From: Chloroflexota bacterium | Lineage (GTDB): Bacteria; Chloroflexota; Anaerolineae; B4-G1; SLSP01 | NCBI GenBank assembly: GCA_029555965.1 | Contig: JAKQHY010000173.1 | Coordinates: 1 to 64,000 of the forward strand | Direction: 5' to 3' | Length of the DNA: 64,000 nt | Part shown: piece by piece, positions 26,880 to 47,876 of the stretch | Position numbering within the stretch: the stretch's first letter is position 1 | Layout: each line of letters starts with the position of its first letter | The notes under the pieces: model-generated | The model's input: only the letters and a program-made list of their open reading frames with translations | Told to the model about the DNA's origin: nothing | The model's database searches: none | Made by a program: the position numbers and the translations under genes

Positions 26880-26962
26880 TTTCAACGCAAAGGCGCAGAG
26901 ACGCAGAGACGCAAAGAACTTTTAATTTTTCCTTTGCGTCTTTGCGTCTTTTCGTCAATTTT
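26880..26962. repeat. Octanucleotide-type array with inverted arm
   Basis: acgcaaaggcgcagagacgcagagacgcaaag...ctttgcgtctttgcgtcttttcgtc. Confidence 0.8.
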
Positions 26963-39139: not shown

Positions 39140-42121
39140 ATGAACATAACTTTTACCCTCAATCATACCCCGCGCACTTTCACCATCACGCCCAATGAAA
39201 CCCTCCTCCACCTGCTGCGGCGCAGTGGCATTAAAAGCGTCAAGTTCGGCAGCGAGGACGGAACGGATGGGTACAGCACGGTGCTGCTCGACGGCAAGCT
39301 CTGCAACAGCGTGGTCACGCTGGCGGCGCAAGTCAACGGGAAAACGGTGCTCACCGTTGAAGGGCTGAGCGGCCACCAGCATCCCGGCTGGAACCCCAAA
39401 GAGGAATTGCACCCACTCCAGCGCGCCTTCATCGAGACCGGCGCGATCCAAAGCGGCTACGACACCCCCGCGCTCATCCTCGCCGGCAAGGCCCTGCTCG
39501 ACCGCAACCCCGCCCCCACCGAGGCCGATGTGCGCGACGCCATCAGCGGCATCGTCTCCCGTGAAACCGGCCACGCCAAGCCGGTGCAGGCGATTTTGCT
39601 GGCGGCGAAGTATTTGCAGGAAGCAGGCAGCGAGACGCAAGATGCAGGAAGCAAGATGCAAGATGCAAGAAGCAAGATGCAGGATGCAGGAAGCGAGAAT
39701 CCAGATTCGCAATTCGCAATACGCAATTCGCAATTCGTTGTCGTCGGTCAATCCCTCCCCAAAGTGGACGCGCTCAAGCTGGCGCAGGGGAAGGCGGCGT
39801 TTGTGGCGGATTTCGAGCGACCGGGGATGCTGTACGCGAAGATTCTGCATAGCCCGCACGCGCACGCGCGCATCACGGCGATGGATACAAGCCGCGCCGA
39901 AGCGCTGCCGGGCGTCCACGCGGTGCTGTGCTACAAGAACGTACCGCGCGTCGTTTTCTCGACGGCGGGGCAGTCGTATCCCATCCCCGGCCCGCTGGAT
40001 TATGTGAGCTTCGACTCGAAGGTGCGCTACGTGGGCGACCGCGTGGCCGCCGTGGCCGCCGAGACGCCGGAGATCGCGGAGCAGGCGCTGACGCTCATCA
40101 AAGTGGCATACGAAGTGTTGCCGCCCGTTCTCAACCTGGACGCGGCCATGGCCGAGGGCGCGCCCGTCATCCACGATCAGCCGGATTACGTCAACTTTGG
40201 CGACAGCGATCCGACGAAGAACCTCGTCGCCAAAGTCCGCATTGACATCGGCGACGTGGACGCGGCGTGCGCGCAGGCCGAGTACGTCTTTGAAACGCAA
40301 GTCGAGACGCAGAAGATGAAGCACGTCCCGCTGGAACCCTGGGTCACGCTGACCTACTGGGACGAGGACGACCGGCTGGTTATCCTGACCTCGACGCAAG
40401 TGCCGTTCCATGTCCGCCGCATCCTCGCGCCGGTGCTGGGGCTGTCGGAGGGGCAAATCCGCGTCATCAAGCCGCGCGTCGGCGGGGCGTTTGGCAACAA
40501 GCAGGAAATCTACGAGGACATCCCCGCGCACCTCACCATCGCCACAGGTCGCCCGGTGCGGCTGGAGTTGACCCGCGAGGAGCAGTTCATCTACACCACC
40601 ACCCGCCACCCGATGCGCGTGAAGTTCCGCGTGGGCGTGCAGAAGGATGGAACGATGGTCGCCCAGGATATGCGCGCGTGGAGCGACACCGGCGCATACG
40701 GGGGCCACGGCTTGACGGTGCTCGGCAACACCGGCCACAAGACGCTGCCCATCTACAACACACCCAACGTCCGCTTCTGGGGCGAGACGTACACGACGAC
40801 CCGCCCGCGCGCGGGGGCGTATCGCGGATACGGCGTGACGCAGGGCGTCGTCGCCACCGAGACGCTGCTGACCGAGATCGCGGTCAAGCTGGGGATGGAT
40901 CCGCTGGATTTCCGCCTGAAGAACATTATCGAGCCGCACAGCGAGAACATTATGAGCAAGGCGTGGAGCGAGGGCCGCGAAGCGAAGGGCGAGATGATCG
41001 AGACATGCGCGCTGCGCGAGGCTGCCGCGCAGGGGGCCGCCGCCGTCGGCTGGCGCGAGAAGTACGGCAACCCGGCGTGGCATGAAATCCCCGGCAAACC
41101 GCATCTGCGGCGCGGCATCGGCGTCGCGTTCCTGATGCAAGGCTCCGGCATCCCCAACCTGGACATGGCCGCTGCCAGCATCAAGATGAACGACGACGGC
41201 AGCTTCAACCTGCACATCGGCGCCACCGACCTGGGCACCGGCTCCGACACCGTCCTGGGGCAAATCGCCGCCGAGGTCATCGGCTGCACGCTCGACAAGC
41301 TCATCATCCGCTCGTCCGACACCGACGTAACGCCCTTCGACAAAGGTGCGTATGCGTCCAGCACCACCTACATCAGCGGAGGGGCCGTGGCCCGCGCTGC
41401 CGAAGAGGTCGCCCGCCAGATCAAAGCCGTCGCCGAAGACATGACCGGCGTGCCCGCCGACGAGATCACCCTGCGTCACAACCGCGCCTGGCTCACCCCG
41501 CCCCCCCTAACTCCTAACTCGCAACTCGCAACTCCTGACTCGCTTTCTTTCCGCGACATCGCCATCTACTCCCTGCACCAGAGCAACCAGCACCAGATTA
41601 TGGGGACGGCCTCGTACCTCAGCCCGGTCAGCCCGCCGCCGTTTGGCGCACAGTTTGCCGAAGTGACCGTGGACATCGAGACGGGGCAGGTGACATGCGA
41701 CCGGCTGCTCATCGCGCTGGATTCCGGCGTCATCGTCAACCCGCTCACGGCGGGCGGGCAGGCCGACGGCGGGATGCACCAGGCGCTCGGCTACGCCCTC
41801 ACCGAGGAGCTGATCTACGACCAGGACGGCCGCACCGTCAACCCGCGCTTCGACGACTACCGCGTCTTCCGCGCTGACGAGACGCCGCCGCTGGAAACGA
41901 TCTTCGTGGAAAGCTACGAGCCATCGCACCCGGTCGGCGTCAAATCCGTAGCCGAGATCGTCGTCAATGGCGCAGCGCCGGCCATCCTCAACGCCCTCTA
42001 CGACGCGACGGGCGTGATGATGAAGCAAACGCCGGTCACACCGGAAAGGGTGTGGCAGGCGCTGCGGGCGGCGGCCACAGTGCCGCATCAACCCACTTTA
42101 GCGTCACAACTGGCAACCTAG
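39140..42121 (+). CDS. Xanthine-dehydrogenase-like fusion (degenerate 2Fe-2S domains plus molybdopterin domain)
   Basis: N-terminal ferredoxin-like and helical 2Fe-2S domains fused to XDH large subunit (VGGAFGNKQE, GAYRGYGVTQG, GVKSVAEIVVNGAAPAI); cluster Cys missing. Confidence 0.9.
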   Translation: MNITFTLNHTPRTFTITPNETLLHLLRRSGIKSVKFGSEDGTDGYSTVLLDGKLCNSVVTLAAQVNGKTVLTVEGLSGHQHPGWNPKEELHPLQRAFIETGAIQSGYDTPALILAGKALLDRNPAPTEADVRDAISGIVSRETGHAKPVQAILLAAKYLQEAGSETQDAGSKMQDARSKMQDAGSENPDSQFAIRNSQFVVVGQSLPKVDALKLAQGKAAFVADFERPGMLYAKILHSPHAHARITAMDTSRAEALPGVHAVLCYKNVPRVVFSTAGQSYPIPGPLDYVSFDSKVRYVGDRVAAVAAETPEIAEQALTLIKVAYEVLPPVLNLDAAMAEGAPVIHDQPDYVNFGDSDPTKNLVAKVRIDIGDVDAACAQAEYVFETQVETQKMKHVPLEPWVTLTYWDEDDRLVILTSTQVPFHVRRILAPVLGLSEGQIRVIKPRVGGAFGNKQEIYEDIPAHLTIATGRPVRLELTREEQFIYTTTRHPMRVKFRVGVQKDGTMVAQDMRAWSDTGAYGGHGLTVLGNTGHKTLPIYNTPNVRFWGETYTTTRPRAGAYRGYGVTQGVVATETLLTEIAVKLGMDPLDFRLKNIIEPHSENIMSKAWSEGREAKGEMIETCALREAAAQGAAAVGWREKYGNPAWHEIPGKPHLRRGIGVAFLMQGSGIPNLDMAAASIKMNDDGSFNLHIGATDLGTGSDTVLGQIAAEVIGCTLDKLIIRSSDTDVTPFDKGAYASSTTYISGGAVARAAEEVARQIKAVAEDMTGVPADEITLRHNRAWLTPPPLTPNSQLATPDSLSFRDIAIYSLHQSNQHQIMGTASYLSPVSPPPFGAQFAEVTVDIETGQVTCDRLLIALDSGVIVNPLTAGGQADGGMHQALGYALTEELIYDQDGRTVNPRFDDYRVFRADETPPLETIFVESYEPSHPVGVKSVAEIVVNGAAPAILNALYDATGVMMKQTPVTPERVWQALRAAATVPHQPTLASQLAT
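39616..39737. repeat. In-frame heptanucleotide array in the xdh interdomain linker
   Basis: aagatgc/aggaagc/aagatgc/aagatgc/aagaagc/aagatgc/aggatgc then gcaattc-type units; encodes GSETQDAGSKMQDARSKMQDAGSENPDSQFAIRNSQF. Confidence 0.9.
41507..41543. repeat. Second in-frame heptanucleotide array in xdh
   Basis: ctaactcctaactcgcaactcgcaactcctgactcgc encodes LTPNSQLATPDS. Confidence 0.85.
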
Positions 42122-45282: not shown

Positions 45283-45338
45283 GTGGGAGTAGGGATTAGG
45301 AATCCCACTCCCTACCCCCTACTCCCTAATCCTTACCC
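45283..45338. repeat. Heptanucleotide-type array with inverted arm
   Basis: gtgggagtagggattaggaatcccactccctaccccctactccctaatcctta. Confidence 0.7.
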
Positions 45339-47876
45339 CACTTCCGCCTTCTTCAACCGCAAACTGTTCGTCACCACGAACACACTGCTGAAGGCCATCG
45401 CCCCGGCAGCCAGCATGGGATTGAGCAGGCCCAGCGCCGCCGCCGGGATGAGCATAACGTTGTAGAAGAACGCCCAAAACAGGTTCATCTTGATGGTGCG
45501 CAGCGTCTTCCGCGAAAGCGCCACGGCGCGCACTACGCCGCGCAAGTCGCCAGACATCAGGGTGATGGGCGCGGCGGCCATCGCTACGTCGGTGCCCGTG
45601 CCAATAGCAATGCCCACGTCGGCCTGAGCCAGCGCGGGCGCGTCGTTGACGCCGTCGCCGACCATTGCGACGACGGCCGGTTTTCCGTTAACCGGCGCTG
45701 CTTGCAACTTCTTCACCTCGGCGGCCTTGCCTTCCGGCAGCACCTCGGCCAGCACGCTCTCAATGCCCACCTGCTGCGCAATCGCCTCGGCGGTCTGGCG
45801 ATTGTCGCCGGTGATCATCGCCAAATGCAATCCCATCCGGCGCAACGCGGCTACCGCCTCCACCGAGCCTTCCTTGAGCGTATCCGCCACCGCGACGACG
45901 CCGCACACCTGCCCATCCACCGCCACCAACATGGCCGTCTTCGCCTCTGCCTGCAAGCGCTCCACCACCGCCTGCAATCCGTTCAGCGGATAGCCGCGCG
46001 ACGCCATCATGCGGGCATTGCCCACCGCCACCGCGCGTCCGTCCACCTCAGCGGAGACGCCCAATCCCGCCTCCGCCTTGAACCCCGCCGGCTCGGAGAG
46101 CGTCAGCCCTCGCGTCGTTGCTTCCGCCCAGATCGCCTCCCCCAGTGGATGCTCGCTCCCTTTCTCGACGGAAGCCGCCAAACGTAAGAGTTCGTCTGGA
46201 GTAATGGGTAATGGGTAATGAGTAATGGGTGACGGTCTCTCCATTGATGACTCATTCCTCATTGCTTCTAACTCCTCACTCCTCACTCCTAACTCCTCAC
46301 TCCTCACTCCTAACTCGCCCACCACCACATCCGTCACCGCCGGCTGCCCCTGGGTAATAGTGCCAGTTTTGTCGAGAACAACGGTGGTGATGCGCCCGGC
46401 GCGTTCCAGAGCTTCGCCGCTTTTCAGCAGAACGCCCAACTCGGCGCCCTTGCCGGTCCCCACCATCACGGCCGTCGGCGTCGCCAGCCCCATCGCGCAC
46501 GGGCAGGCGATGACCAGCACCGCCACCATATTGATGAGCGCGCGTGTGAAAGCGTCCACGTCCGCATTGACCGGCAGCGGCGTCCCCAGGAAATACCAGC
46601 CCAGGAACGTGAGCGTGGCGACGCCGATCACGATGGGCACGAACACCGCCGAAATCTGATCCGCCAGCTTTTGGATGGGCGCCTTGCTGCCCTGCGCCTC
46701 CTCCACCAGGCGGATGATCTGCGCCAGCGCGGTCTCGCGGCCCACCTTCGTCGCCTCAAATTTAAGCAGCCCCAGTTTGTTGAGCGTCGCGCCGATGACC
46801 GGCTGCCCCGGCCCCTTTTCCACCGGCAGCGACTCGCCGGTCAACATAGATTCGTCCACCGCGGAGCGGCCTTCGATCACCACGCCATCCACCGGGATTT
46901 TCTCGCCGGGCCGCACCAGCACCACATCGCCCACGCGCACCGCATCCACCGGGATTTGCAGCTCGACGCCATCGCGCACCACCTGCGCCGTCTTTGCCTG
47001 CAAACCCATCAGCTTCTTGATGGCCTCCGAGGCGCCGCCCTTCGCTCGCGCTTCCAACAGCTTGCCCAGCCGCACCAGGGTAATGATAACCGCCGATGTT
47101 TCCAGATAGACGTGCCCCTCAAGCCAGCCAAACACGATGGGCAGCGAATAGAGATACGCCGCCGTTGAGCCGAGGGCAATCAAAACATCCATGTTGGCCG
47201 CGCCGTTGCGCAGGGCCTTAGTCGCGCCCACGTAATACTGCGCGCCCACGTAAAATTGCACCGGCGTGGCAAAGGCCAGCATCACCCAATGCACCCAATC
47301 CGCGTGCGCCCACATCCCAAACGCGCCAAAATCCCGCGCCATCGAGAACGCAAACAGCGGCAGGGTGAAGATCAGGCCGATGACGAGCATCCGCTGTTGA
47401 TGGGCGATTTCGGCAGCGCGCGCCCTGGCCTCCGCGTCGTCGGCGTCGCCGCCCAACTCCAACGCCTCGAAGCCGGCCCGCGCTACTGCCGCGCGGATTT
47501 CGGCCTGGCTGACGAGGGTGGGCACGTAACGCACGCGCGCTTTCTCGGTCGCCAGCGCGATCTGCGCCTCCAACACGCCTTCCAGAGCGAGTAGGGCCTT
47601 CTCCAACCGCCGGGCGTCGTTATCGTCGCCCAGCCGCTTGAGGATGAGGTCGGCCTCCCCGGCAGCGACGCCGTAACCCGCGCGCTCCACCCGCCCGATG
47701 ATGTCGGGCAGGAAGACCAGCGTCGGGTCAAACTCCACCGTGGCGCGCTCCGAGGAAAGGTTGACGACGGCGCCGGTCACGCCGTTAACCTTCTTCAAGT
47801 TGCGTTCCACCGTCGCCACACAGTTGGCGCACGTCATCCCGGTGATGGGCAGGGTGATGGCTTTGGTTTCGGACAT
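45333..47876 (-). CDS. copA: Copper-translocating P1B-type ATPase
   Basis: [46 protein letters not shown]. Confidence 0.95.
46201..46318. repeat. In-frame heptanucleotide array inside copA
   Basis: gtaatgggtaatgggtaatgagtaatggg...taactcctcactcctcactcctaactcctcactcctcactcctaactcg; encodes [23 protein letters not shown]...[11 protein letters not shown]. Confidence 0.92.

Follow-up and report, generated by a model that had tools for sequence, protein, structure and literature searches.

How a stretch of tandemly repeated DNA can come to lie between two conserved modules of an enzyme, in frame and in place of whatever joined them before, is the question raised by the gene of an XDH-like protein in the window (the whole 64,000-nt stretch of DNA that was analysed). 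A preliminary description had noted heptamer repeats in the interdomain linker of this protein and had put forward array generation as a way in which new protein linkers can arise. The array was analysed at the DNA level and compared with orthologous loci, with the remainder of the genome, and with heptamer repeats known from other bacteria.

Sequence and gene context

The source assembly is a draft metagenome-assembled genome (MAG) of 4.93 Mb in 237 contigs, 85% complete, and its relatives in the public databases are MAGs assigned to Chloroflexota, under labels such as Anaerolineae and Thermoflexales. Feature coordinates are collected in Table 1. The best solved relative of the 993-aa protein was the alpha subunit of 4-hydroxybenzoyl-CoA reductase (1rm6_A, E 1e-112, residues 199-977), and residues 1-163 aligned to small Fe-S subunits, which are chains of their own in similar enzymes (PDB, e.g. 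3hrd_D); residues 1-163 and 199-977 thus match separate chains in solved enzymes. Both MoCoBD_1 and MoCoBD_2 are present and align to solved members, as in the molybdenum-cofactor part of the xanthine dehydrogenase family, and this part is kept in all orthologues. The N-terminal part had been described as a Fe-S-type domain; the Fer2_2 and small-subunit matches agree with this, but the cluster cysteines are gone in the query's clade, and in the alignment FGSEDGTDGYST, SGYD, and SRETGH stand where L052 keeps cysteine motifs. Because the cysteine motifs of the two [2Fe-2S] clusters that belong to the xanthine dehydrogenase family are replaced, the protein is named XDH-like only. As a separate observation, the cysteines of the first cluster alone are retained in the L018-L026 group and both sets are retained in L052, and for this reason the loss looks stepwise.

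Table 1. Coordinates of the features analysed in the window
Feature	Position	Strand	Basis
Molybdenum hydroxylase-like single-chain protein gene, 993 aa	39140-42121	+	ORF; Pfam Fer2_2, Ald_Xan_dh_C, MoCoBD_1, MoCoBD_2
Fe-S-like N-terminal domain, about residues 1-158	39140-39615	+	Pfam Fer2_2 72-152; PDB small subunits; alignment
Left, purine-rich arm of linker array; GCAAGAT / GCAGGAA / GCAGGAT units	39616-39699	+	Scan, TRF; boundary by eye
Right arm of linker array; ATTCGCA units, also found in intergenic arrays	39705-39737	+	TRF period 7, scan
Molybdenum-cofactor part, about residues 199-978	39734-42073	+	Pfam, orthologue alignment, PDB large subunits
Second in-frame heptamer array, CTAACTC / GCAACTC units, variable loop, peptide PLTPNSQLATPDS	41507-41543	+	Scan 41506-41534; orthologue comparison
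CopA-like heavy-metal P-type ATPase gene with in-frame array	45333-47876	-	Pfam HMA, E1-E2_ATPase, Hydrolase
Two-arm in-frame array in CopA-like ATPase; + strand purine 46201-46230, pyrimidine 46251-46316	46201-46316	-	Scan, orthologues

Period of the linker array

The interdomain linker (residues 160-198) is encoded by a divergent 7-nt array at 39616-39737, in frame. These bounds, already given in the preliminary description, were returned exactly by an independent self-offset scan, and periods of 7, 14, and 21 were reported by TRF. Self-identity was 0.78, 0.70, 0.74, and 0.68 at offsets 7, 14, 21, and 28, respectively, and 0.15-0.32 at the remaining offsets between 3 and 29. The peptide that had been read from the array (GSETQDA/GSKMQDA/RSKMQDA/GSENPDS/QFAIRNS) is correct and lies in frame within the ORF, but each 7-residue period corresponds to three units (21 nt) instead of seven. 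Preservation of the frame had been ascribed to the coprimality of 7 and 3; the array is in frame, but only a total length change divisible by 3 keeps a frame. The linker peptide was recoded synonymously, with codons taken from this gene, and none of 5000 recodings matched the observed 7-nt identity (maximum 0.64 versus 0.78). Because the recodings never exceed 0.64, the period is a feature of the DNA and not a protein heptad.

The left and right arms of the array are separated by a 5-nt spacer, and G-triplets are absent. The resemblance of the terminal units to those of intergenic arrays, as originally reported, is borne out by the right arm, and units of the linker array recur elsewhere in the genome (AATTCGC in 6 and AAGATGC in 3 of 76 arrays). 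Frame-locked growth in 21-nt steps was considered and rejected, as the highest identity expected at offset 21 in coding arrays was not seen. The linker is presumably translated, and a tryptic peptide such as MQDAGSENPDSQFAIR would be expected from it. A structure prediction based on a 15-sequence alignment (mean pLDDT 48) was too poor to use, and its placement of residues 163-210 in coil has little meaning.

Comparison with orthologues

In the orthologue alignment that had been proposed as a check, flanks were 57-88% identical and both domains were intact, and the linker was different and non-periodic; for L007, the flanks were 88% and 87% identical to those of the query. Orthologue linkers (residue 160 to 199/201 of the query) have 51-70 residues, compared with 38 in the query, and all of the approximately 22 distinct ones, of which GEDPGPVLGSSDLGELGEALFGPPEGLFGPLDTFEPPEFGSGGG... 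exemplifies the type, are non-periodic. The linker of the closest relatives has 65 residues, which makes the net change in the query -81 nt, or -27 codons. A conserved linker shared at the protein level with no periodicity in the DNA, which would have spoken against recent invasion by an array, was not seen among these approximately 22 orthologues, and no trace of the old linker was found at the array site of the query in the same comparison. Because the orthologue linkers are non-periodic, the flanks align, and nothing of the old linker was seen, these alignments show that the array replaced the ancestral linker rather than being added to it. The proposal that array generation can create protein linkers is supported in this respect, since the orthologues keep the domains and carry a different linker. 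One-step replacement and stepwise gain followed by loss fit alike a comparison in which the genus is represented by one genome.

A second in-frame array of the XDH-like gene (Table 1) had been missed in the preliminary description. In the nearest genus (L007, L008, L022), a loop of similar length consisting mainly of TCAGCNG heptamers stands at this site, and in other relatives the loops are shorter or non-periodic. The common ancestor shared with the nearest genus probably had an array at this loop, the units of which were later changed or replaced; independent gain of an array on two occasions is a less favoured alternative.

Arrays in the genome

Genome-wide counts rest on sampled stretches amounting to 568 kb of the 4.93 Mb. 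These contained 76 arrays of period 7 (about 134 per Mb), 13 of period 8, 2 each of periods 6 and 9, and none of periods 5, 10, or 11, and a first-order Markov shuffle of the same 568 kb gave no period-7 segments at the threshold used. Arrays were placed relative to genes called with a simple codon-usage script. Because 16 of the 76 arrays, in 10 genes, are internal to genes despite 78% of the DNA being coding (p about 1e-25), selection against in-gene arrays is indicated; the dominant unit is stop-free in 13 of these 16. Both the over-representation of tandem 7-nt units relative to other sizes and the dispersed, mostly non-coding location are as in STRR-like heptanucleotide repeats. The 76 arrays fall into 41 heptamer classes and range in length from 23 to over 120 nt.

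The g9 genomes are equally rich, with 13-19 arrays per 100 kb where well sampled, and none were found in about 110 kb of the g4 genomes (small samples). Among 301 genomes searched in the phylum, the GCARGAT unit type turned up in 3. In a distant Chloroflexota genome (G333), 41 matches to the GCARGATGC array pattern were found, with none in the sampled congeners; array bursts are sporadic for that reason. When the unit vocabularies of three genomes were compared, two of the three comparisons gave 7 shared units against 0.6-0.7 expected for random necklaces, and the third gave 1 against 0.3. Genome-specific homogenisation of units was rejected, since arrays that occupy one loop in several genomes have units in common no less often than arrays of a single genome that occupy several loops.

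Arrays in other proteins and gene fusions

In this genome, Pfam domains were found around or on both sides of arrays in the CopA-like ATPase, RecD2, and a paralogue of the XDH-like protein, and in relatives they surround arrays in an AroB-shikimate kinase fusion, a CBS/poly(A) polymerase-family protein, and a family 31 glycosidase. In the CopA-like ATPase the array accounts for about 40 residues of the HAD-type hydrolase region, at a place where most relatives have 7-18. Orthologous loops were compared across genomes for three of these proteins. At the equivalent linker of the XDH paralogue, arrays were found in G000, G020, G008, and G014. The CopA loop holds arrays in G000, G010, G015, and G014, shorter periodic stretches in G035, G029, and G009, and mostly plain sequence of 21-54 nt in other genomes. 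Arrays occupy the RecD2 loop in G000, G014, and G008, and the loop is 6 nt long in G009, G010, and G001. The units at one loop often differ between genera, and every length in the three loops is a multiple of 3. On this evidence the process is recurrent and genome-wide, reaching the XDH paralogue, CopA-like ATPase, RecD2, AroB, BcrA/BadF-like, and FabA/acyltransferase proteins.

In the XDH paralogue of the sister genome G012 (flanks 73% and 68% identical), a TAG stop and the ATG start of a new ORF occur within 66 nt, where the array-bearing clade reads through; in the tree, G012 adjoins four fused paralogue sequences. The simplest reading of these sequences is that an array probably fused two subunit genes in this clade. 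Loss of the fusion in G012 is conceivable as an alternative, because more distant relatives are mixed.

Some further in-gene arrays were observed. In G014, one ORF (L109:2760-4559) encodes both a class II dehydroquinase and an aminotransferase, with a heptamer array between them, and is a possible second array-mediated gene fusion. Two large multidomain proteins of the FabA/acyltransferase type and BcrA/BadF-like, encoded at L211:1280-5050 and L210 (minus-strand ORF, 1047 aa), appear to hold several array-encoded linkers each. Three in-gene elements (L061:7376-7491, L061:9847-9956, and L093:6471-6570) have an 8-mer stretch of the CGCTGATC type between the arms, which encodes SADQRIS-like peptides.

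Relation to known repeats

The excess of heptamers in bacteria, the idea of slippage, the coding of heptapeptides, and the tolerance of such repeats at protein ends have already been published, as set out in passages of PMC4692102 and PMC4679880. The closest known systems are the STRR repeats of cyanobacteria and the GGGNATC-type repeats of Xanthomonas and Nostoc (Rehm et al. 2015, PMC4692102), which according to the passages that describe them are likewise dispersed and mainly intergenic. The same passages report further features common to both systems: the purine (G-rich) strand adjoins the 5' neighbouring ORF, repeats are rarer in coding DNA, their length and sequence vary among relatives, and GGGGATT units occur. 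Compared with the repeats described there, the present genome has many unit types, frequent two-arm elements, and in-frame replacement of internal linkers of conserved enzymes; intragenic repeats are mentioned by Rehm et al., with no linker replacement in the passages on them. The linker array lacks the G-triplets of the G-quadruplex consensus, and GGGGATT units occur in only 6 of the 76 arrays; because that consensus does not fit, the arrays are classed as heptamer repeats in general and not as the Rehm G4 subtype. The TAACTGA repeats of Beggiatoaceae, Cyanobacteria, and Bacteroidetes (PMC4679880) likewise form 7-nt arrays, encode a repeating heptapeptide within ORFs, and follow a stop-codon orientation rule, but that system has one dominant unit, and where its copies fall within ORFs they are mostly found at the ends of proteins or in hypothetical proteins. 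The arrays described here are located inside known enzymes, both between domains and within them, and orthologues give evidence of replacement. The repeats themselves are therefore known (cyanobacteria, Xanthomonas, Beggiatoa), and what appears to be new is that heptamer arrays have repeatedly replaced internal linkers, of which no earlier report was found in a limited literature search that included few subscription papers.

Origin of the arrays

It is proposed that a DNA-level process of this lineage makes and remodels divergent 7-nt arrays at weakly constrained, mostly intergenic sites; in the XDH-like gene such an array has taken the place of the linker between the Fe-S-like and molybdenum modules. 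The array would have been retained because the net length change was a multiple of 3, stop codons were lacking, and the modules are separate subunits in related enzymes, for which last reason almost any flexible peptide may serve as linker; the linker peptide itself is presumably neutral. Considerable confidence is placed in this account of replacement by a DNA-level array process, with retention through frame, stop-free reading, and tolerance of the linker. As to the generator, the 3' end of the purine-rich strand would be extended in 7-nt steps, most likely by slippage-like synthesis or templated re-copying. Among pairs of neighbouring arrays, between and inside genes and on either gene strand, the purine arm was on the left and the pyrimidine arm on the right in 22 cases and the reverse in none. 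Intergenic arrays were nearer to the ORF on the 5' side of the purine strand (39:15, p 0.0015, G000), and the mean complementarity of paired arms exceeded that of swapped arms (0.71 versus 0.59), with about a quarter of the pairs non-complementary. Because of this polarity, placement, and partial complementarity, the purine-rich 3' ends are suggested to be the growing ends. Searches for an enzyme of the process gave no candidate: Ku-dependent end joining was rejected, as no Ku was found in 24 genomes, and so was a reverse transcriptase as generator, since the distribution of RVT_1 does not follow the arrays, RVT_1 being absent, for example, from the array-bearing G010.

The same observations bear on a rather unlikely variant of this generator, the healing of double-strand breaks, in which both 3' ends gain purine-rich heptamers and are joined independently of Ku, which would leave a purine arm on the left and a pyrimidine arm on the right, with loss of the sequence between them. 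The invariant 22:0 polarity on either gene strand and the 5'-side placement agree with it, a placement described likewise for Xanthomonas and Nostoc in a passage of PMC4692102; so do the non-complementary pairs, as independent extension predicts, and the disappearance of linker or intergenic sequence at the site. However, the mean complementarity of the arms fits fold-back copying or shared units, the placement count in the small sample of relatives was 6:4 and not significant, and no enzyme emerged for this variant either. In-frame insertion of a mobile palindromic element, similar to the Rickettsia palindromic elements or a MITE, is very unlikely. Dispersed, two-armed, in-frame elements in unrelated genes do recall those of Rickettsia (Ogata et al. 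2000, reviewed in PMC10969869), which as summarised in part of that review are also in-frame DNA repeats tolerated in unrelated ORFs; they are, however, copies of sequence families of about 150 bp, whereas the arrays here share only the 7-nt period and loose units and lack a common core, a common length, and a conserved peptide. Classes and lengths are as diverse as given above, orthologous sites differ in units, no conserved ends were seen by eye among 26 elements, and the old linker is gone instead of flanking the array. A target-site duplication is unreadable at the linker, the ancestral sequence having been replaced. A common core was also sought and none was seen; an TGATCCGC 8-mer stretch lies in the middle of some elements and is absent from most.

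Repeat collapse or misjoining in a draft MAG of 237 contigs has to be considered, as tandem repeats are hard to assemble, but the flanking sequences form a single gene read in a single frame, every array-bearing loop compared has a length divisible by 3, arrays occur at the same loops in independent genomes of other genera, and the two arms of the linker array are made of different units; an assembly artefact is thus very improbable. There is little to be said for a selected regulatory or contingency role, as an mRNA hairpin or phase-variable switch. The two-arm layout and the frame shift that 7-nt steps would cause are in its favour, and a regulatory role has been suggested for intergenic heptamer repeats in passages of PMC4679880 and PMC4692102, but the mRNA segment of the linker array folds no better than shuffles (z +0.58), and the XDH-like gene is open at present, as are the other genes examined.

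These loci provide a direct, phylogenetically controlled case of non-coding repeat DNA being taken up into conserved enzymes as an internal segment, repeatedly and at shared loops, and the origin of new protein linkers and domain fusions becomes testable. The different units at orthologous loops suggest that arrays are rebuilt and not merely inherited, and for that reason the question of why 7-nt repeats are in excess in bacteria is reopened. A much wider and distinctly speculative generalization would be that 7-nt DNA synthesis at purine 3' ends repeatedly deletes and refills unconstrained DNA in some bacterial lineages, rewriting linkers and fusing genes across the proteome. Arrays of period 8 (ACGCAAAG/CTTTGCGT and TCGCTTTC types) were also observed alongside the 7-nt arrays, at 26885-26956 and L034:4638-4698, and these can likewise form inverted pairs.
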